Shown here: positions 39,474 to 48,225 of the stretch, one piece after another | Layout of the letters: the number at the start of each line of letters is the position of its first letter | How positions within the stretch are numbered: the first letter of the stretch is position 1 | Source: Pseudodesulfovibrio sp. zrk46 | GTDB taxonomy: Bacteria; Desulfobacterota; Desulfovibrionia; Desulfovibrionales; Desulfovibrionaceae | Direction of reading: 5' to 3' | Assembly (NCBI RefSeq): GCF_012516435.1 | Contig: NZ_CP051216.1 | Location: forward strand, 1,304,001-1,368,000 | Length of the DNA stretch: 64,000 nt | The notes under the pieces: model-generated | Databases searched by the model: none | Told to the model about the DNA's origin: nothing | Seen by the model: the letters and a program-made list of their open reading frames with translations, nothing else | Position numbers and translations under genes: made by a program

Positions 39474-40250
39474 TTATGCCTTTTTAGTGGCGGTAACTAT
39501 GACGTCTTTACCGAAAAACAGGTCATCGCTGAGCAGGGTATTCGCGATGAATGTGTTGTACGCGATGTTTTCGGGTTTGGTCTTTTCATGCTCCTGGGCT
39601 TTCTTCTTGTATTTCAGGAGATAGTAATTGGTCGTGAGCCGAATCAAAGGCTGGAGAACCTTGAAAACCTTATCGCTGGACTGGAAGTAGGAAGATTCCA
39701 CGGCTTCAATGTCATAGCCGGTCTTGCGGAGGAAGTAGTCCATCTCGGGGTAGCCGATAAGGTTGATATGGGCTTCGCCATACGGGACATCCAGATTGAT
39801 GGGCGATTTCATGCCGCGGTAGAAACCGGAGAACAGGTGCATGAAGCGGGAACGGATCTGCAAGCGGTTGGGGAAGGTCAGGATAAGCTTGCCGCCGGGC
39901 TTGAGAACGCGGTTGAACTCGCGGAGTACATGCGGCACGGACTCGACGTGCTCGATGACTTCACGGCAGATAACTACGTCGAACTGGTCATCATCAAGCT
40001 CAAGGCGCTGGTTCAGATCCTGGAAAATTTCTTTGATGTCAGGAAACTTCTGCGGGTAGTAGTTGGAAATGGTGACATCATGGCCCTGGTCTTTCAATTG
40101 ACGGGAAAGGATGGCAGAGCCGGCGCTAGATTCGAAAATCTTGCAGGGGCCGGTAGGGATGTGGGCGCAGATGACAGCATCTTTCTTGATGTCACGACGA
40201 TGTTTGCGGACGATTTCGCCGCCGATTCGGATATCGGTGTATTTACTCAT
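39474..40250 (-). CDS. Class I SAM-dependent methyltransferase
   Basis: The 258-residue protein has a degenerate glycine motif (KIFESSAGSAILSRQL, near residue 38), then FDVVICREVIEHVESVPHVL and FNRVLKPGGKLILTFPN, as in the UbiE/COQ5-like Methyltransf_11 group. The C-terminal 110 residues carry GEAHINLIGYPEMDYFLRKT, common in methyltransferases linked to surface glycans. ATG 40250 is fixed by AGGAGAAC upstream. The marR gene precedes it by 60 bases on the same strand. Confidence 0.85.
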   Translation of the reverse strand: MSKYTDIRIGGEIVRKHRRDIKKDAVICAHIPTGPCKIFESSAGSAILSRQLKDQGHDVTISNYYPQKFPDIKEIFQDLNQRLELDDDQFDVVICREVIEHVESVPHVLREFNRVLKPGGKLILTFPNRLQIRSRFMHLFSGFYRGMKSPINLDVPYGEAHINLIGYPEMDYFLRKTGYDIEAVESSYFQSSDKVFKVLQPLIRLTTNYYLLKYKKKAQEHEKTKPENIAYNTFIANTLLSDDLFFGKDVIVTATKKA

Positions 40251-40310
40251 GAGTGTTCTCCTGATGGCAGGTCTTCTAGCGGGGAACGGTTCGGAACGCA
40301 ACCATTGCGG

Positions 40311-40781
40311 TTAATCCACGACTTCATCCAGAAGGACGACAATGGATTCCATCTGGTCTTCTTCCAGCTTTTCGGTCATTTGCCGCATGATGCGTTTGAA
40401 ATAGCGACGGTCATTGATGGTCAGGCCCTGATTAACCGAAGAGCGAAGGTCATCAATGGCCGCGGTCACGGTGGATTGGATGCTGCGACCGTGATCGGTG
40501 AGGGTAATGTGATGTCGCCGACGATCTTCCTTGGTTCGCTTTTGCTCGACAAGGCCATCCCTTTCCATTCGTTTGAGGGTATTGGAGAGGGTGGCTTGCT
40601 CAATGTCCAACGTGGCCTTCAATTCCTTTTGCGTGATGCCGTCTCTTTCCCACAGTCTTGAGAGAATGGTGAGATATCCTGGTTGCACACCGTATGGTGT
40701 AAGTCGGGAAGAGAGACTCTTGGCATAAAGGCGTTGAAATCTCGAGAGTTGATCAAAAAACAATGGCTGTAGATCGTTCAT
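40311..40781 (-). CDS. MarR-family transcriptional regulator
   Basis: The 156-residue winged-HTH protein has GITQKELKATLDIEQATLSNTL (recognition helix), KRMERDGLVEQKRTKEDRRRHHI (wing, with the conserved Asp-Arg pair) and flanking dimerisation helices. It is divergent from the deacetylase gene at 40906. A perfect 16-bp palindrome at 40820-40835 lies between them, the expected place for a MarR operator controlling both. Confidence 0.9.
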   Translation of the reverse strand: MNDLQPLFFDQLSRFQRLYAKSLSSRLTPYGVQPGYLTILSRLWERDGITQKELKATLDIEQATLSNTLKRMERDGLVEQKRTKEDRRRHHITLTDHGRSIQSTVTAAIDDLRSSVNQGLTINDRRYFKRIMRQMTEKLEEDQMESIVVLLDEVVD

Positions 40782-40819
40782 TAGTGATTCCAGTGGATTA
40801 ATTGGATTAACGCGATAAT

Positions 40820-40835
40820 AAATAGCATGCTATTT
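40820..40835. promoter_or_regulatory. Candidate MarR operator
   Basis: The perfect palindrome AAATAGCATGCTATTT sits 39 bases upstream of marR and 70 bases upstream of the divergent deacetylase gene. Size and symmetry suit a MarR dimer. Confidence 0.6.
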
Positions 40836-40905
40836 TAAGAATAATCAAATGAAAACTATGTGCAGCAATCTTTACGAATGGAGTGTGTGCAGGTAGTTGG
40901 GAAGA

Positions 40906-41763
40906 ATGAAGCTCATAATTAATGTAGATGATGCCGGATTGCACCCAGCTGTGAACCGGGCTGTCGAGATATTGGCGGAAAAAGGATTGTGCACGTCCGC
41001 ATCCATCGTTGCGAACGGACTTGCTGTGAAGAGCGCGACGGCGCTGGAAGGCGTGAGTCTCGGCGTGCATTTGGATATTCTTCGTGGGCGTCCGGTGAGC
41101 CATTGGCAGAATGTTACTTCACTGGTGGATAAGAACGGGGCCTTTTTGATGGACCCTGTCATTCTTTTTCAACGCTATGCAGCCGGAAAGGTTGACCACA
41201 TGGAAGTGGAAAAAGAGTGGCGCGCCCAAATCGAACACATCATGAGCCTTGGCGTGAAACCTACTCATCTGACAAGCCACAAGCATGTCCATGGGTGGCC
41301 GTCCCTGACGCGCATGGCGGTGAATCTGGCGAAGGAATACGGCATTGACTGGATTCGCAAACCAGAAGAGTGCAGTGAGATTTCCAAGCTGGACAAATCA
41401 ATCTATCAATCAAAATTTCTCAACGTCTGTGGGTATTTCGACAGAGAACTCGACGGTGTGAACTGGACTGACGTTTTGTGGAGTGCCGTTGATCATGATG
41501 GGGCAATGTCCCCGGAGCGGTTTGTCGTCTATCTGGATAATTGTGGGGATGTGAAGCCTGACAGTGTGTTGGAGTTGGGCTGCGGCGCTGGCATGATAAC
41601 AGCTGGTGATCCTCCGATACCGCCGGAATACGATCCAACCAAGATCAGCGCTGTGTGGCGCGACCAGTTTCGCTCTCTGGCAGAGGATGCGTGGCCGGAA
41701 GCCATCAAGATGTTAGGCGCTGAGTTGGTCACATATTCGGAATTGCCGAAATTCGTGGAATGA
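40906..41763 (+). CDS. YdjC/ChbG-like carbohydrate deacetylase
   Basis: The 285-residue protein starts MKLIINVDDAGLHPAVNRAV, with metal-binding Asp-Asp of the YdjC/ChbG family, then GVHLDILRGRPV (metal His), LTSHKHVHGWPSL (second metal His) and a C-terminal THEE-equivalent region around LELGCGAG. Members remove acetyl groups from N-acetylated oligosaccharides. ATG 40906 is preferred over a TTG three codons upstream. It is divergent from marR. Confidence 0.82.
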   Translation: MKLIINVDDAGLHPAVNRAVEILAEKGLCTSASIVANGLAVKSATALEGVSLGVHLDILRGRPVSHWQNVTSLVDKNGAFLMDPVILFQRYAAGKVDHMEVEKEWRAQIEHIMSLGVKPTHLTSHKHVHGWPSLTRMAVNLAKEYGIDWIRKPEECSEISKLDKSIYQSKFLNVCGYFDRELDGVNWTDVLWSAVDHDGAMSPERFVVYLDNCGDVKPDSVLELGCGAGMITAGDPPIPPEYDPTKISAVWRDQFRSLAEDAWPEAIKMLGAELVTYSELPKFVE

Positions 41764-41823
41764 TAGAGGCCTGATCGCCGAAATGGGTTGAACACACTAT
41801 GGTGGTGGGCTAGGTTTGTAGCC

Positions 41824-42585
41824 ATGAACATGGAAATGCTCATATCAGTCATCCGCCAACGTTGTGTGGCGGTGGACCGGGCCGTGGTGGCCATGTCCGG
41901 CGGCGTGGACTCCACGCTGGTGGCTGCCGCTGCGGCAGCGGCCATGGGCGTGCGTTGCGTGGCCGTGACCGTGCAGAGTGAGCTGACCGCACCGCGAGAT
42001 TTTACCCGCGCCGTGGAAATGGCCGAACATATCGGCATCGAGCATCATCCCCTGTGCATAAGACTTCGGGAAATCAAGGAAGTTCGGCGGAATACAGAGC
42101 TTCGCTGCTATCATTGCAAGCGGGCCATCTTCGATCTCATGCGGCTAGAATATGGTGACGATACGCTGATCATGGATGGCACCAACAAAGATGACGATCC
42201 GAAGCGTCCTGGACTCAAGACCGCGAAAGAGTTCGGTGTGTTTTCGCCACTGAAAGAGGCGGGCATGACCAAAGCAGATGTTCGCAGGGTGGCTAAATCC
42301 ATAGAATTACCCAATTGGGACACGCCATCAGAGAGTTGTCTGGCCACAAGGATACCGACAGGCATTCCTCTAAATCAGCAGCGTTTGGAGATGGTACGGG
42401 CCATGGAAGAATTCTTCCACGCAAGGGGCGTGAAAACGTTGAGGGCTCGTCATGATAATCTGGTGGCAACAATTGAAGTGTTGTCGCAATACAATGCAAT
42501 TATTGAAAAAAATCATGATCGCTTCATGGAACTGATCAGCGACCTTGGTCTGCGCTCCTACAGAGTGTGTGTCTTGAAGGGGTAA
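41824..42585 (+). CDS. larE: LarE-family ATP-dependent sulfur transferase
   Basis: The 253-residue PP-loop protein has AMSGGVDSTL (residues 24-32), RCYHCKRAIFDL (CxxC at 95/98), FSPLKEAGMTKADVR and SESCLATRIPTG with Cys172, the position of the sacrificial cysteine of L. plantarum LarE (Cys176). LarE sulfurates the pyridinium adenylate precursor of the nickel-pincer nucleotide cofactor of lactate racemase-like enzymes. No other Cys lies close to Cys172, which suggests the sacrificial rather than iron-sulfur type. ATG 41824 is chosen; a TTG twelve codons upstream precedes non-conserved sequence. Confidence 0.9.
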   Translation: MNMEMLISVIRQRCVAVDRAVVAMSGGVDSTLVAAAAAAAMGVRCVAVTVQSELTAPRDFTRAVEMAEHIGIEHHPLCIRLREIKEVRRNTELRCYHCKRAIFDLMRLEYGDDTLIMDGTNKDDDPKRPGLKTAKEFGVFSPLKEAGMTKADVRRVAKSIELPNWDTPSESCLATRIPTGIPLNQQRLEMVRAMEEFFHARGVKTLRARHDNLVATIEVLSQYNAIIEKNHDRFMELISDLGLRSYRVCVLKG

Positions 42586-42635
42586 AGACATTGGGAACAG
42601 TCAGCCCTAGTCATATTTCGAACGGAGAAAGGTTG

Positions 42636-43412
42636 ATGCGAACCGTATATTTGGACTGCTCGACAGGTGTGAGCGGTGACATGCTCTTGGCCTCGTTGGC
42701 CCATGTGCTAGAAGAAATAGAGGGCGAGGGAGCAGGGTTTGCCTTTCTTAAAAACGAGCTAACACGCCTTAATATTGAAGGATTCGGTCTTGAATGGTCC
42801 CATAAGAAGATCGGTGGGATTATGACTTGGCATGTGGACGTGATCCAGACGAACGACCAACCGCTGCGAACACATGGCGACCTTATGCGGATCGTGGATG
42901 ACAGTGGTGTTACCGGACGGGCTGCAGAATGGTCTCGACAGGCCATAACCCTGTTGGGGGAGGCTGAGGCCAAGGTGCATGGCGTTTCACTCGAGAAAGT
43001 CCACTTTCACGAGATAGGTGCTGTAGATACTATTGTGGATATTGTAGGAAGCATGGTTTTACTGGACCGCATCGGAGCTGAAACAGTGGTGTGCTCGCCC
43101 GTGGATCTGGGGTCTGGTTTCGTACATTGTGCACATGGCAAAATGCCAGTACCTGCACCAGCTTGTGCGTTGTTAGCGCAAAGCCTTATTACCTTCGGTT
43201 CTGAATGTGGAATGGAGCGGGCAACGCCCACTGGATTGACAGTATTGCGGACAGTTGTCGATAACTGCGGAACTATGCCCATGGGGAGGGTTCGTGGTGT
43301 GGGTTACGGCTCAGGCGGTAGGTCGTCTGACGAACACCCGACATACGTTCGTGCCTTCATGTTAGAGAAGGTTGCAGAAGATTTACCGAATAGAGACCAT
43401 AATCATGCGTGA
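42636..43412 (+). CDS. larC: LarC N-terminal-domain protein (LarC1 only)
   Basis: The 258-residue product starts MRTVYLDCSTGVSGDMLLAS and has VHFHEIGAVDTIVDIVGS and the ATPTGLTVLRT and GVGYGSGGR motifs, all of the DUF111/LarC family. Full-length LarC is usually about 400 residues and its second half (LarC2) binds CTP and inserts nickel; that half is missing here. The next frame is a different family, so a -1 frameshift into LarC2, as in L. plantarum, is not possible. ATG 42636 has GGAGAAAGG upstream. The 3' end overlaps the DUF3431 gene by 8 bases. Confidence 0.85.
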   Translation: MRTVYLDCSTGVSGDMLLASLAHVLEEIEGEGAGFAFLKNELTRLNIEGFGLEWSHKKIGGIMTWHVDVIQTNDQPLRTHGDLMRIVDDSGVTGRAAEWSRQAITLLGEAEAKVHGVSLEKVHFHEIGAVDTIVDIVGSMVLLDRIGAETVVCSPVDLGSGFVHCAHGKMPVPAPACALLAQSLITFGSECGMERATPTGLTVLRTVVDNCGTMPMGRVRGVGYGSGGRSSDEHPTYVRAFMLEKVAEDLPNRDHNHA

Positions 43413-44076
43413 TAACATAAAACTGATCATAGCGCGGTATCAGGAAGACATCTCCTGGGTCGATGACCTGGACTATGATTACATAGTGTATGACAAGGGT
43501 GGAAAGCCCGTACAAAATGCAGTTCATTTGGCAAATATTGGTAGAGAAGCGCATACATATTTTACACACATCGTGCGAGAGTACGACTCGTTGGCTCCGG
43601 TCAATGTGTTTCTGCAGGGAGACCCATTTGATCATATTGGTGATCAGGGAAAAGGGGACGTGAAAACGTTGCAGAACCATATTGAAGATGTTGCGGATCG
43701 AGGTGTTCCATTCAAGGGATTTGCTTGGTTCAAGCTCAAATGTGACCGATTGGGCCGTCCGCATGACCTGCACAAGCCTGAAAACGAGGGCAGATGGGCT
43801 GGATGGGGCAAAGACATCCCGTTGGCCGAAATATTCGAGAAGCTGTTCGACGCCGATTTTCCCCGCCAGTTGGTGGCGCGTGCTCCAACCGGCATCTTTG
43901 CTGTCACCGGAGACAGAATCCGGACACGGCCCAAGGCGTTCTACGAGTATGCCTTGCGGTTGGTGGAGGCTGATCCTGATGATGCAAATAACACCGGACA
44001 TGCCTTTGAACGGTTGTGGCAGCACATTTTCAATGGCAATGTAGCCTGGAATCGGAACGACTACGAAAAGTTATAG
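43405..44076 (+). CDS. DUF3431 family protein
   Basis: The 223-residue product has the DUF3431 pattern: IIARYQEDISWVDDLDYDYI then IVYDKGGKP near the start, HLANIGREAHTYFTHIVREYD, VNVFLQGDPFDHI, and a C-terminal RAPTGIFAVTGDRIRTRPKA with YALRLVEADPDDANNTGHAFERLW. The QGDPFDH segment recalls GT-A-like glycosyltransferases of fungal and bacterial glycan clusters, but the activity is not established. Its ATG lies within the larC end (8-base overlap), so translation is coupled. Confidence 0.82.
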   Translation: MRDNIKLIIARYQEDISWVDDLDYDYIVYDKGGKPVQNAVHLANIGREAHTYFTHIVREYDSLAPVNVFLQGDPFDHIGDQGKGDVKTLQNHIEDVADRGVPFKGFAWFKLKCDRLGRPHDLHKPENEGRWAGWGKDIPLAEIFEKLFDADFPRQLVARAPTGIFAVTGDRIRTRPKAFYEYALRLVEADPDDANNTGHAFERLWQHIFNGNVAWNRNDYEKL

Positions 44077-44091
44077 ATAAGGCAACCCGTT

Positions 44092-45315
44092 ATGGCACTC
44101 CCACTGAATTTTCGCATAGCACTCTCGTCGCTCAAGGCGCACAAATGGCGGGCCATTCTGGCCATGCTCGGCGTGTTCCTTGGCGCGCTTGCGTTTACTG
44201 GAGTTCAGCATGTGTCCAAGATCATGGTCCGCAGGGCCGAGATCGAAACCGAAAAGCTGGGACCCAACTCCTATGCGGTGGTCGCTGGAAATATACGCTT
44301 CCGTCGTAGCGGCGGGGCGCGAATCACAGCCTTTTCGCGCAACTTCACCGTGGGAGATGCAAAGGCTGTCATCGACGGCGTGCCTTCTGTCATGGAAGGA
44401 ACGCCCTATGTGAACACCACAATGCAGGTGCGCGGCAATGGAAATGCCGTCACTGCGAAGATCATGGCGTCGTGGCCCAACTATCAAGTTATTCGTAATT
44501 TTTTCCCAGAAAATGGCCGTTTTTTTGATTGGGAAGATGTCGAAGAGCGCAACAAGGTCTGCGTTCTTGGCCAGAAAATTGCCGAGCGGTTGTTCGGTAG
44601 CGCTGATGCGGCAATAGGGGAGACAGTCTATCTCTTCCGGGCCAGCTTCCGCGTGTTGGGAGTGATGGAGGCAAAGGGCCGTGATGTGGCCGGAGAAGAT
44701 CAGGATGAGTACCTCTTCATTCCGCTGGAGACATTCATGCGGCGCGCCAGCAATCAGGACTGGATTTCAGGCGTGTTCCTCAGGCTCTCAAAAGATGCCG
44801 GACTGGAGCAGGTAGAAGAGTCGGCCACCGCCATCATGCGTATGCGGCACAATATCAAAGAAGGGCAGAAGGATGACTTCGCCACCATGTCGCCCAAGGA
44901 TGCCATGCGGTTGCAACGACAGGCGCTGGATCTCATGACCACACTGGGCGGTATCACCTCCACCATCTCCTTCGGGGTGGGCGGCCTCGGCATCCTGTCC
45001 ATCATGATTCTCGTGGTTCGTTCGCGGCGAATTGAGATCGGTGTGCGCAGGGCTGTGGGCGGACGTCGCCAGGATATCATTCGACAGTTTCTGTTCGAGT
45101 CGGCTCTCATGGCCGGCATCGGTGGAGCCTTCGGCGTACTGGCCACCGTGGTACTTGTCACAGTGGGCTGTAATCTGGCCGATCTGCCGCTCATCATCGA
45201 TGCCAACAGCCTCATCACCACCCTTGTTGGGTCCTGCGTTTTGGGGATTGCTGCGGGCGCATATCCGGCATGGCAGGCGGCAAATATCGAAATCCTCGAC
45301 GTTCTCAAAATATAG
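44092..45315 (+). CDS. MacB-type ABC transporter permease
   Basis: The 407-residue protein has one N-terminal helix (WRAILAMLGVFLGALAFTG, residues 19-37), a periplasmic MacB_PCD domain of about 220 residues, and a C-terminal FtsX region with three helices (GGLGILSIMILVV, ALMAGIGGAFGVLATVV, LVGSCVLGIAAGAYPA). Such permeases work as mechanotransmission dimers with an ATPase and often an HlyD protein. Neither partner is adjacent, so this is an orphan permease. It begins 15 bases after the DUF3431 gene. Confidence 0.85.
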   Translation: MALPLNFRIALSSLKAHKWRAILAMLGVFLGALAFTGVQHVSKIMVRRAEIETEKLGPNSYAVVAGNIRFRRSGGARITAFSRNFTVGDAKAVIDGVPSVMEGTPYVNTTMQVRGNGNAVTAKIMASWPNYQVIRNFFPENGRFFDWEDVEERNKVCVLGQKIAERLFGSADAAIGETVYLFRASFRVLGVMEAKGRDVAGEDQDEYLFIPLETFMRRASNQDWISGVFLRLSKDAGLEQVEESATAIMRMRHNIKEGQKDDFATMSPKDAMRLQRQALDLMTTLGGITSTISFGVGGLGILSIMILVVRSRRIEIGVRRAVGGRRQDIIRQFLFESALMAGIGGAFGVLATVVLVTVGCNLADLPLIIDANSLITTLVGSCVLGIAAGAYPAWQAANIEILDVLKI

Positions 45316-45353
45316 ATCGATTAAATAATATTTCAGTTAGATAGAAGTTATAG

Positions 45354-45388
45354 ATAGCTGGCTATCAATAGAATAAATAGCCAGCTAT
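45354..45388. promoter_or_regulatory. Perfect 12-bp inverted repeat
   Basis: ATAGCTGGCTAT and ATAGCCAGCTAT flank an 11-base AT-rich spacer, 38 bases after the permease stop and 166 bases before the TetR start. There is no T run, so a protein-binding site or a weak terminator is possible. Confidence 0.45.
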
Positions 45389-45554
45389 ATGAAATTGACT
45401 ATCCATATTTGACAATCAACTGAGTGCAAAATTGTATTGTTGATATCGAGTCGTGCAGAACCTGTATAAATTGTGAAAGATAATTGACTCAGATGATGAA
45501 ATGCGCTGTCTAATAAATAGTTAATCATGGCGGAGTATTCAGGAAGGGGGAGCA

Positions 45555-46151
45555 ATGACGACAATTCACGATAACGATGAGATGGGGTTGTCCATTCTGG
45601 ACGCCGCCGCTAGGCTTTTCGAAGAGCAGGGCGTCAAGAAGACAACCCTCGAAGACATTGCAAAGCGAGCCGGAGTGGGGCTGGAAGATATCAAATCCCT
45701 ATTTCACACCAAGACCGCGCTTGCCCTGAAGTTGCAGACACATGCGCTACAGGAACTCAGCAGACAGTATTTGGTGGAAATGCCCGACGCCTCTCTTGAA
45801 GAGATGGTCGAGTTCATCATGCGCACACGCCTCAGATATGCGGAAAGTCATGTTGAGCAGACCATGCTGTTCTTCCGAAAAGCCTTCAATGGTGTGCAGC
45901 CATGGTCACAGATGTTGGATCAAACCATTTGGCAGCTTTCTGTCGAATTCGCTTCGCTTATCGAGAAGCGTGTTCAGGCCGGAGAGTTTCGAAAGGACAT
46001 GGATATCAACACGGCCGTGCGTGCCCTGACTTCCTTCTATCTGACCGGCATAACCCTCATGGGATTGCGGGCAGATAATTTCAGTGCAGATGAAGTGTGG
46101 GCGTTTATCGAACCGCAGGTACACATGCTGCTTGAAGGGCTCCGCGCCTGA
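45555..46151 (+). CDS. TetR-family transcriptional regulator
   Basis: The 198-residue protein has an N-terminal TetR HTH: ILDAAARLFEEQGVKKTTLEDIAKRAGVGLEDIKSLFHTKTALAL (residues 15-59). The C-terminal ligand domain (about 80-195) is helical with FFRKAFNGVQPW. The ATG is preceded by GGGGGAG. It stands alone and is followed by a terminator; the preceding 239-base gap holds an inverted repeat that could be its operator. Confidence 0.92.
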   Translation: MTTIHDNDEMGLSILDAAARLFEEQGVKKTTLEDIAKRAGVGLEDIKSLFHTKTALALKLQTHALQELSRQYLVEMPDASLEEMVEFIMRTRLRYAESHVEQTMLFFRKAFNGVQPWSQMLDQTIWQLSVEFASLIEKRVQAGEFRKDMDINTAVRALTSFYLTGITLMGLRADNFSADEVWAFIEPQVHMLLEGLRA

Positions 46152-46488
46152 CCAGCGCCTGAAAGAATGAATTGAATCGGCCATGCCTCGCATGGCCTTT
46201 TTTATGCGCTATGCGATCCAATGAGCATCGGACTGCAATCTCTAGATAATCTATACGAAATATGTAGGGAATAGTCTCTTTGCCTGAAATAGCGTGATAT
46301 TTTTTCGATTACTCACGTAAGCGAAGAATGTAAAAGCGATGAATCGGCTAAATAATGGGCTTGAATAAGCATTTCCTGCTGCGAGGTAGGAAATAGAGGT
46401 AAAGCGCTCTTCCTGCGCGCATATGTTGCGTCCTTTTCCTGCGCACGGTATCGTGCCGCGCGAAACTACTGAATCAAGGAGCCCGACA
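46152..46488. other. Intergenic region upstream of the VOC-HAD gene
   Basis: 337 bases holding the tetR terminator and an otherwise featureless AT-rich leader. No small ORF with a ribosome-binding site was found. Confidence 0.5.
46177..46204 (+). terminator. Terminator of the TetR gene
   Basis: GGCCATGC-ctc-GCATGGCC is followed by TTTTTTAT. Confidence 0.88.
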
Positions 46489-47283
46489 ATGGCTGTTCAT
46501 CCCACAGTGACGCTGCTGGTGCGCGACAAGGAAAAATCCGCTCTGTTCTATGAAAAGAGTCTGGGCTTCAGTCTGGCCTGGGAAACCCTGCTTATCGGTC
46601 CCTACGGCCAATCTCTGCGTCTTCTGGAAGTGCCTGACGGCCCGACGGGTGGCTGCATCGTGCACAGCGTGGAAGTGCCGAGTATCGATATGGCCGTGGA
46701 GGCCATCATCGAGCACGGCGGCGGCCGGGGCGAGAAGTTGCTGGAAGATACGCCTCTCTACGTGGGACCGGATGGCGAACTCATCATGCTCTCCCAGCGC
46801 GGTCTCTCCAACGCAGACGTCGTGAAGCTCGTGGTCTATGATTTCGACGGCGTAATGACCGACAACCGTGTGTTCGTGGACGAAACAGGGCGGGAAACCG
46901 TTGCGGCCAATCGCTCGGACGGTCTGGCCATCGGCATGATCCGCAAGCTCGGCATTGACCAGTGCATTCTGTCCACCGAGGAAAATCCCGTGGTGTCGGC
47001 TCGTGCAGGGAAACTCAATATCGAGGTGTCGCAGGGCATCCGTGACAAAGGCTCTGCCATTATCGATCTCGCTGGGCGGAAGGGCGTGTCCCTTGCCGAA
47101 GTGCTTTACGTGGGCAACGACGTCAACGACGCCGACGCCATGGGCTTGTGCGGCTTCACCGTAGCGCCGGCCGACGCCCATCCCGCCATTTTGGCCATGG
47201 CCGATTACGTGACCGAGGCCCCGGGCGGTTTCGGCGTGATCCGCGAGCTGGCCGACGTGCTGTCCGCAGGAGTGCGGAGATAA
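46489..47283 (+). CDS. Fusion of a VOC/glyoxalase domain with a NeuA/KdsC-type HAD phosphatase
   Basis: The 264-residue protein has an N-terminal VOC domain (1-108: HPTVTLLVRDKEKSALFYEK, MAVEAIIEHGG, ELIMLSQ) joined to a complete HAD domain (about 112-262). The HAD part has the DxD nucleophile motif YDFDGVMTDNRVFVDETGRE, then ANRSDGLAIG, ILSTEENPVVSARAGKL, GIRDKGSAI and YVGNDVNDADAM. These words match KdsC and, more closely, the phosphatase domain fused to CMP-acylneuraminate synthetases, which acts on 2-keto-sugar-acid phosphates. The VOC module may bind a sugar-acid or metal ligand. The start is fixed by AAGGAG. No cytidylyltransferase is adjacent. Confidence 0.82.
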   Translation: MAVHPTVTLLVRDKEKSALFYEKSLGFSLAWETLLIGPYGQSLRLLEVPDGPTGGCIVHSVEVPSIDMAVEAIIEHGGGRGEKLLEDTPLYVGPDGELIMLSQRGLSNADVVKLVVYDFDGVMTDNRVFVDETGRETVAANRSDGLAIGMIRKLGIDQCILSTEENPVVSARAGKLNIEVSQGIRDKGSAIIDLAGRKGVSLAEVLYVGNDVNDADAMGLCGFTVAPADAHPAILAMADYVTEAPGGFGVIRELADVLSAGVRR

Positions 47284-47316
47284 TATTTCTCAATAAAACA
47301 AGTTGATAAAACGAAA

Positions 47317-47350
47317 GCGGGAGCGAACCATGGTTCGCTCCCGTTTGTTG
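47317..47350. terminator. Bidirectional terminator between the VOC-HAD and AraC genes
   Basis: The palindromic stem CGGGAGCGAACCATGGTTCG then CTCCCG, with an A-rich left flank and TTTGTTGTTT on the right, lies between convergent stop codons. Confidence 0.85.
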
Positions 47351-47367
47351 TTTGTGGGGTCGGTATA

Positions 47368-48225
47368 CTACTTCACCGGGATATACACCTCGGTCAAGAG
47401 GTCCTCTTCGGGGGTGATGGTGCAGTCGTTGAGGTACACCTCAAAGCTGGGCTTGGCCTCCAGTTCATACCCGTTTTGTGGCAACCACTGACCGCAGAGT
47501 TGTTCGTAGGTCGCAGCCAGCTTGGTATATGGGCCCTTGTGCAGGGTGGTGGCATAGCGCCCGGCAGGGATGGTCTTGGTCCCGACAGGAGACTCCGTCT
47601 CCAGCTCTTCATTCACTTGAACGCAGGCGTCGTAACGAATCTTGTCCGGCGGGGTGATTTCAGGTTCATCATGGCAAATACCTATGAATCTTGGTGTGTT
47701 GGCGAGCAACCCTTTGGGGCCTGCCCAGTTGCAGAGGGTTTCCCATGCGGGATGGCATTCCTCATAAGGGCCGGTATGACGGACGTACGCCACATGCACT
47801 GCTTCCATTTCTATGACTTTTGCTTCCATGGTGATCTCCTTCCAGTACGTTGGTTGTTGCTGGTCAAGGCGCACGTTGTGGGCCTTTCGGTACCCAAGAG
47901 GAGAGATGCCGAACATGGAACTGAAGGCGCGGGTGAACGACTCATGCGTTTCAAAGCCGGCATCGAACGCAATGTCGGTCACGGAGGTGTCGTTATGCTT
48001 GAGCATGACGGCCGCCCGTTCCAGTCGAATTCGCCTGATGTAGGATTTCACTGATTCGCCAACCATACCGCTGAAAATGCGGTGAAAATGGTAAGCCGAA
48101 AAGCATGCGATTTCAGCGAGTTCTTCAAGCGCCATGGAATCATCAATGTGATCATGGATATGCTTCAGAACCAGATCCATCCGCCGGGCATAATCCTGTT
48201 TGGTCGTCTCTTTCGGGGTACGCAT
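47368..48225 (-). CDS. AraC-family regulator with GyrI-like effector domain
   Basis: The 285-residue protein has two AraC helix-turn-helix motifs (LEELAEIACFSAYHFHRIF; TDIAFDAGFETHESFTRAFS) followed by SPLGYRK, then a C-terminal GyrI-like small-molecule domain of about 155 residues (VAYVRHTGPYEECHPAWETL, CVQVNEELE, AGRYATTLHKGPY, FEVYLND). Rob/SoxS-like members sense amphipathic drugs or organic acids. I chose ATG 48225 (MRTPKETTKQDYARRM), the usual distance before the first HTH. An ATG at 48291 is possible but has no ribosome-binding site. Confidence 0.85.
   Translation of the reverse strand: MRTPKETTKQDYARRMDLVLKHIHDHIDDSMALEELAEIACFSAYHFHRIFSGMVGESVKSYIRRIRLERAAVMLKHNDTSVTDIAFDAGFETHESFTRAFSSMFGISPLGYRKAHNVRLDQQQPTYWKEITMEAKVIEMEAVHVAYVRHTGPYEECHPAWETLCNWAGPKGLLANTPRFIGICHDEPEITPPDKIRYDACVQVNEELETESPVGTKTIPAGRYATTLHKGPYTKLAATYEQLCGQWLPQNGYELEAKPSFEVYLNDCTITPEEDLLTEVYIPVK

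Follow-up and report, generated by a model that had tools for sequence, protein, structure and literature searches.

The 64,000-nucleotide stretch of the Pseudodesulfovibrio sp. zrk46 chromosome analyzed here (NZ_CP051216.1, positions 1,304,001 to 1,368,000; hereafter, the window) carries a cluster of larE, larC, a DUF3431 gene, and a MacB/FtsX-type permease gene, and the LarC encoded in it ends with the N-terminal half of the protein, LarC1, without the C-terminal half, LarC2. LarE and LarC are known, together with LarB, from the pathway to the nickel-pincer nucleotide (NPN) cofactor. As judged from the sequences, the absence of LarC2 is real and is a nearly family-specific variant of this known pathway. 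An earlier note on this DNA had pointed out a LarC1 without LarC2, and the arrangement is conserved: LarC1 is the sole LarC in 42 of 80 relatives from the Desulfovibrionaceae, and LarC2 was not found in them.

The 80 genomes, all with a completeness of at least 95%, were hand-picked from a set of 199, and comprise all 17 genomes of the same genus, those with hits in the LarC1 clade of the window (clade A below), and, for the remainder, one or a few per genus; the sample is enriched for the window's clade, and 42 of 80 should not be read as a frequency. Besides the 42 LarC1-only genomes, 34 have LarC2, three have no LarC, and one (G014) is cut by a contig end. The LarC proteins of the 42 cover only positions 1 to about 235 of PF01969. 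The possibility that LarC2 is hidden elsewhere in these genomes was rejected with a LarC2-only profile of eight rows (from G000, G024, G196, G003, G008, G011, G185, and G040), which found LarC2 in none of the 42, the best two hits being noise (13.2 bits, E values of 0.115 and 0.133). The profile recovered all five positive controls, only one of which (G091) is independent of the profile rows, and six of the 42 genomes consist of a single contig (G039, G069, G072, G138, G139, and G156). Separate LarC2 genes were detected where they are present, in four genomes of family f42 and in G008 and G011; therefore, the missing LarC2 does not come from overlooking split genes. In L. plantarum (Lactiplantibacillus plantarum), too, larC1 and larC2 are split genes. 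The split systems of f42, G008, and G011 resemble the window in having LarC1 as a stand-alone protein, but a second gene provides LarC2 there and none was found in the 42 genomes. In the f42 genomes (G252, G280, G303, and G325), LarC1 and LarC2 are separate genes on different contigs.

LarC1 is the sole LarC in 11 of the 16 other genomes sampled from the same genus. LarC2 was present in all 127 LarC-bearing genomes outside the family in the phylum sample and in 31 of 32 in the order sample, where the exception, G380, is 91% complete; overall, one LarC1-only genome was seen among 159 LarC-bearing genomes outside the family. LarB and LarE were each found in 45 of the 45 genomes in which they were sought, all 42 LarC1-only genomes included. 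In a partial check of prior art, covering titles and the openings of abstracts, no LarC1-only protein and no work on LarC together with LarE in Desulfovibrio turned up.

A tree of 67 LarC1 rows contains three LarC1-only groups, namely clade A (37 rows, with the window), clade B (7 rows), and clade C (14 rows). Identical copies, L098 (in two pieces, one with unknown letters), and one of two L145 sequences were dropped beforehand. Clade B is sister to LarC proteins with a divergent LarC2, and some genomes have both a LarC1-only protein and LarC2 (G000 and G024 for clade A; G071 for clade B; G001, G008, G011, and G026 for clade C). Because LarC is as a rule full-length elsewhere in the phylum, the simplest reading would be that LarC2 was lost three times, although the tree is unrooted and itself needs just two label changes. 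Three genomes (G031, G040, and G114; loci L133, L134, and L135) have a second, canonical-type LarC that breaks off where LarC1 ends and has larB next to it, and one of these retains a short LarC2 remnant. Decay of LarC2 may be ongoing in these other lineages.

The features of the cluster are as follows (window positions).

40897 to 41763, plus strand: YdjC/ChbG-like deacetylase gene just upstream of larE (PF04794, 162.2 bits)
41824 to 42585, plus strand: larE, a PP-loop sulfur insertase of 253 amino acids with an SGGVDS loop, CXXC-C type (TIGR00268, 217.4 bits)
42106 to 42117, plus strand: codons for Cys95 to Cys98 (CYHC), the CXXC part of the CXXC-C triad (from the sequence; role of the motif from PMC9283937, in part)
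42337 to 42339, plus strand: codon for Cys172, the third cysteine of the triad (from the sequence)
42586 to 42635, no strand: 50-base gap between larE and larC1, the site of larB in most related loci and too short for a remnant
42636 to 43412, plus strand: LarC1-only gene, 258 amino acids, without the LarC2 domain and with a short tail holding two histidines (NRDHNHA)
43405 to 44076, plus strand: DUF3431 gene, product with a predicted GT-A-like fold (PF11913, 86.7 bits; AlphaFold2 model and fold matches)
44092 to 45315, plus strand: MacB/FtsX-type permease gene, 407 amino acids, with only MacB_PCD and FtsX domains and no ATPase domain of its own

The start codon of the DUF3431 gene (ATG at 43405) lies before the larC1 stop codon (TGA at 43410 to 43412), an overlap of 8 bases, and 15 bases separate the DUF3431 gene from the permease gene. 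The open reading frames, coordinates, overlap, and gap in the earlier note all agree with the sequence, and its assignments to LarE, LarC1, DUF3431, and a MacB-type permease were each matched by a profile.

The larC product matches positions 1 to 235 of the 375 positions of PF01969 and ends there, and it scores 177.5 bits against TIGR00299 (cut-off, 90). It has the motifs HFHE-GA-D, HG-P-P-PA, and TPT, and its residues 1 to 242 align to residues 19 to 252 of the full-length LarC in PDB 12bi, LarC1 motifs included. Compared with full-length LarC (12bi to 12bl, with LarC2 in 6bwo, 6bwq, and 6bwr), the LarC1 region is alike, but the window protein stops at the end of it, where some relatives carry a histidine-rich tail. 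The AlphaFold2 model of the window LarC1 has a predicted local distance difference test (pLDDT) score of 90.6; it gave no Foldseek match at an E value of 0.001 or below and no VIA-align match at a Z score of at least 5, a search that says little, as 12bi to 12bl were not among the matches listed and are perhaps younger than the library. The FHE-GA-D motif is intact in all 31 clade A, 7 clade B, and 14 clade C proteins, TPT occurs in every protein, and the HG-P-P-PA pattern fits 31 proteins of clade A and 7 of clade B. The ratio of nonsynonymous to synonymous substitution rates was 0.06 to 0.31 in four LarC1 pairs, while the pair of the window and G128 was saturated. Conservation of the LarC1 motifs and purifying selection are thus evident at the level of the sequences. 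Some clade A members have histidine-rich C-terminal tails at the usual place of LarC2, for example 22 histidines in 76 residues in L043 and 10 in 22 residues in L064. Such tails on LarC1-only proteins, also present in L046, L048, L067, and L122, are reminiscent of nickel-binding tails.

LarE was described in the earlier note as keeping a sacrificial Cys172. This residue is there, but it completes a CXXC-C triad begun by Cys95 and Cys98, so that the sacrificial mechanism is not expected. The protein exceeds the TIGR00268 cut-off of 150 bits, its SGGVDS PP-loop begins at residue 25, and it matches the LarE structures 5udq, 6b2o, and 8cnz. In Thermotoga maritima LarE, which shares the triad, the CXXC-C motif binds a [4Fe-4S] cluster, and Cys92, Cys95, and Cys172 were mutated (PMC9283937, in part). 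The triad leads us to expect that the window LarE is probably catalytic and of the [4Fe-4S] type. A sacrificial LarE of the L. plantarum type, with a single active-site cysteine and no CXXC, was rejected as improbable on account of the same triad. Across 50 LarE rows, in which some genomes are counted twice, CXXC occurs in all 50 and the pattern for the third cysteine was matched in 45.

The genome that carries the window is one contig of 4.08 Mb and holds a second, canonical lar set, made up of a full-length larC, another larE, and larB, all adjoining at about 2.2616 to 2.2644 Mb on the same chromosome (larB at 2264006 to 2264392 by PF00731 and at 2263664 to 2264386 by protein search). The only LarC2 of this genome lies inside the full-length canonical larC; there is none in the window protein or its cluster, and no larB in the 50 bases between the window larE and larC1. 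A larE-larC1 pair without LarC2 or LarB is therefore a correct description of the locus but not of the genome, and although a complete lar set exists elsewhere, the arrangement in the window is conserved in relatives. Likewise, the suggestion that the cluster relies on a LarC2 elsewhere could hold in this genome, through the full-length LarC, but not in the 42 LarC1-only genomes.

The missing larB is, by comparison of the loci, a local quirk. Among 31 loci whose LarC1 is closely related to that of the window (the window locus plus 30 in other genomes), larE lies upstream in 30 and larB, as called by script, in 27. The larB of L074 (G060) is masked by a long overlapping open reading frame, a protein search placing it just upstream of larC1, and the L073 locus is broken off by a contig end; larB is truly missing between larE and larC1 only in the window and in G128. 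The DUF3431 gene is next to larC1 in 24 of the 31 loci. A gene for a MacB-type permease follows in 16 loci and one that we call MprF-like, from its sequence and without a family search, in 11. Conservation of the operon and LarC1-only proteins with the same neighbors were thus both looked for and found. In a named collection of 35 DUF3431 loci, the order larE-larB-larC1 precedes DUF3431 in 19 (5 Pseudodesulfovibrio, 4 Humidesulfovibrio, 1 Salidesulfovibrio, and 1 Desulfocurvus, the rest being Desulfovibrio sp. or unplaced metagenome-assembled genomes), and those without this order are 11 from Desulfovibrionales and 5 from other phyla. The two sets of loci are not independent, as at least twelve of the 19 appear to be shared. 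In L071 and L072, a gene on the opposite strand, which we take from its sequence to be ThiC-like, is inserted between larB and larC1.

Judged by LarC1, G128 is the genome closest to the window; it shares the larB-less cluster but has no full-length larC and no second larE. Its single larB is far from larE-larC1 and is of the canonical type, with a product 63% identical to the canonical LarB of the window genome, with which it groups at a modest support of 82/81. Since the only LarB of G128 is canonical and accompanies LarE and LarC1 of clade A, the first step seems to be shared: canonical LarB apparently feeds the clade A enzymes in G128, and this likely holds in the window genome as well. An in-place deletion of larC and larE in G128 was considered and rejected, as the remaining genes of the L055 stretch had no match around its lone larB and no scar was found.

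From these observations we tentatively propose, at somewhat less than even confidence, a LarC2-free, larE-larB-larC1 variant of NPN synthesis in which LarC1 does the metal insertion and of which the window holds a larB-less copy. LarB, which in the window genome the canonical set at 2.264 Mb presumably provides in trans, would make the dicarboxylated pyridinium mononucleotide, and a [4Fe-4S]-type LarE would then thiolate it. LarC1 alone would perform the metal insertion, a step that involves LarC and CTP (cytidine triphosphate) in the bacteria studied, and DUF3431 and the permease would be accessory envelope functions of the clade's operon, outside the cofactor chemistry. We infer LarC1 as the metallating catalyst, its independence of CTP, and nickel as the metal; in the absence of LarC2, there is probably no CTP step in LarC1-only bacteria. 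The proposal follows the LarB-LarE-LarC pathway of L. plantarum, Moorella thermoacetica, and T. maritima in that LarE and LarC1 score above the curated cut-offs and LarB is present in the window genome and in the operon of most related loci, but differs from it in that the window LarC has no LarC2 half with the CTP site and the window genome has no LarA, the known user of the cofactor. Retention of the adenylyl group by LarB, which would make CTP unneeded, was also considered and rejected. The canonical LarB of the window genome and a clade A LarB (L082) align nearly full length to L. plantarum LarB, and by eye, a comparison that does not address hydrolysis itself, their conserved stretches do not obviously differ; the pairing in G128 also counters this idea.

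LarA was counted at a Lar_N score of at least 70 bits, because most weaker matches cover about 50 positions. This is like the sole match in the window genome (31.5 bits over 52 of 204 positions; Pfam cut-off, 23.3), the only weaker match inspected, which sits in a protein that reads as ferredoxin-type from its sequence. Some Lar_N match was present in 59 of the 80 genomes and one above the Pfam cut-off in 47. At our threshold, LarA-bearing LarC1-only genomes occur in all three clades (G164, G028, and G060 in A; G036 in B; G017, G019, and G032 in C). The H-x9-K-x15-H spacing that corresponds to His174, Lys184, and His200 is kept in each of the seven LarA proteins, as are D-x-TRP (as around Arg75) and G-x-H (as around His108), the last two correspondences being our own placement; the roles of these residues in binding NPN and nickel are from PMC11770544, in part. 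The LarA of G164 is closest to the malate racemase Mar2 (386 bits). Because these seven genomes have a LarA with intact NPN ligands, the sequences argue that ordinary NPN or a close relative can still be made in LarC1-only genomes.

Several points weigh against the proposed LarC2-free synthesis of NPN. LarC from L. plantarum and from M. thermoacetica has been described as CTP-dependent (PMC11796402, in part), and metal insertion by LarC1 alone contradicts this scheme unless LarC2 is replaced. LarA is present in just 7 of 42 LarC1-only genomes compared with 11 of 34 LarC2-bearing ones (Fisher p of 0.17), which leaves the cofactor without a known user in most LarC1-only genomes. The canonical LarC could serve everything in the window genome. 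Clade C is divergent, the HG-P-P-PA pattern fitting just 10 of its 14 proteins, and in clade A many of the tails contain hardly any histidines or none. Finally, the LarB match contains an in-frame TGA in G037 and is partial in G017 and G034, and the LarE matches of G042, G073, and G138 fall slightly below the curated cut-off.

One alternative is that LarC2 has been replaced by a nucleotidyltransferase unrelated in sequence and that LarC1 still needs a nucleotide-activated substrate. This would fit the 42 genomes that keep the other parts while LarC2 was not found, and the split genes of f42, G008, and G011 suggest that the two halves can act as separate proteins, in which case LarC2 could become exchangeable. 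However, no shared gene was seen beside LarC1 across the three clades, the rest of the genome not having been searched for a replacement, and in clade B larC1 adjoins a gene that we call CBS-domain-like, with no other lar gene nearby. We consider such a replacement unlikely. Similarly unlikely in our estimate is a different product, such as a metal-free or other-metal thiolated pyridinium nucleotide, used by an enzyme other than LarA. This could account for the 35 of 42 LarC1-only genomes (including 10 of the 11 from the window genus) that have no Lar_N match of at least 70 bits and for the placement of the operon among envelope and efflux genes, and LarB, LarE, and LarC without LarA are common elsewhere, in about 15% of genomes (PMC11796402, in part). 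Nevertheless, all three LarC1-only clades include a LarA with NPN- and nickel-binding residues, LarB aligns nearly full length to that of L. plantarum, and the LarE motifs are kept. In a more speculative form, and one that we hold to be doubtful, a CTP-independent LarC1 would complete a pincer cofactor other than NPN, with another metal or nucleotide tail, for some envelope enzyme; if true, this would explain both the envelope and efflux neighbors and the absence of LarA from most genomes.

The presence of a full larC-larE-larB set on the same chromosome and of a local cluster without larB could also mean that the window LarE and LarC1 serve the canonical set as auxiliary paralogues, feeding or regulating it, instead of running a separate pathway. 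This is improbable given that LarC1 is the sole LarC in most other genomes of the genus and that G128 has the same larB-less cluster without a full-length larC or a second larE.

The DUF3431 protein scores 86.7 bits against PF11913 (cut-off, 25) and matched no other Pfam family and none in NCBIfam. Its AlphaFold2 model (pLDDT, 94.4) has CMP-Kdo synthetase as its best Foldseek match, at an E value of 1.1e-3, and mannosylglycerate synthase as its best VIA-align match (Z score of 9.1 over 157 residues, 3.6 Å). The predicted fold resembles that of sugar nucleotidyltransferases and of GT-A glycosyltransferases (mannosylglycerate synthase, TarP, and ArnC; Z scores of 8 to 9 over about 150 residues), but the acidic metal motif of the latter is not strictly conserved in DUF3431, whose QGDPFDH stretch varies at the first Asp. 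From the model, DUF3431 is a probable GT-A-fold transferase. It is not tied to lar genes, since 11 of 30 Desulfovibrionales DUF3431 loci have no lar gene in the fetched stretch, and it is therefore taken as an envelope or glycan enzyme. Eight of these 11 (L092, L093, L101, L104, L105, L107, L108, and L110) have a uvrB-like neighbor and mostly potassium-channel-like and ligA-like genes, named from sequence. That DUF3431 substitutes for LarC2, adding a nucleotide to the thiolated substrate before metal insertion by LarC1, might be suggested by the overlapping genes, the adjacency to larC1 in 24 of 31 clade A loci, and the CMP-Kdo synthetase match, but is highly improbable, as it is not beside larC1 in the other 7 (two of which, L077 and L078, have less than 1.7 kb of downstream contig), did not turn up in the clade B and C loci that were fetched, often occurs away from lar genes, and has glycosyltransferases as its top matches by structural alignment. 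Distant DUF3431 proteins (L112 to L116) come from Planctomycetota and an Elusimicrobiales metagenome-assembled genome, with identities of 35% and 22% in the two aligned (L112 and L115), and the literature listed for the family concerns Aspergillus.

The permease resembles MacB/LolCE permeases in its MacB_PCD and FtsX domains but differs in having neither a fused ATPase domain nor a directly adjoining ATPase gene; its neighbors are DUF3431 and a TetR gene, and an ATPase partner was not searched for genome-wide. Related loci hold a MATE-like transporter, an MprF-like gene, a MacB-type permease, and TetR- or MarR-like regulators, several of them named from sequence, and the YdjC/ChbG-like gene is a larC1 neighbor in part of them as well. 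By their predicted functions, these genes point to a cell-envelope or stress setting. No Rfam family reached its gathering score in positions 40000 to 47500, and promoter- and terminator-like sites around the locus were no commoner than in shuffled sequence. Farther downstream, an open reading frame at 46423 to 47283 (plus strand) joins a weak glyoxalase-like stretch, below the Pfam cut-off, to a KdsC-like HAD phosphatase, and its relatives are kept in eight loci of the same genus at 55 to 74% identity.

Metal insertion by LarC has been taken to need CTP, which LarC2 binds, and this family separates the two halves of LarC by a natural experiment. With LarB, LarE, and LarC1 kept in all 42 genomes across three clades, the role of LarC1 becomes directly testable, and the variant bears on the purpose of the cofactor in organisms that have larB, larC, and larE but no larA.

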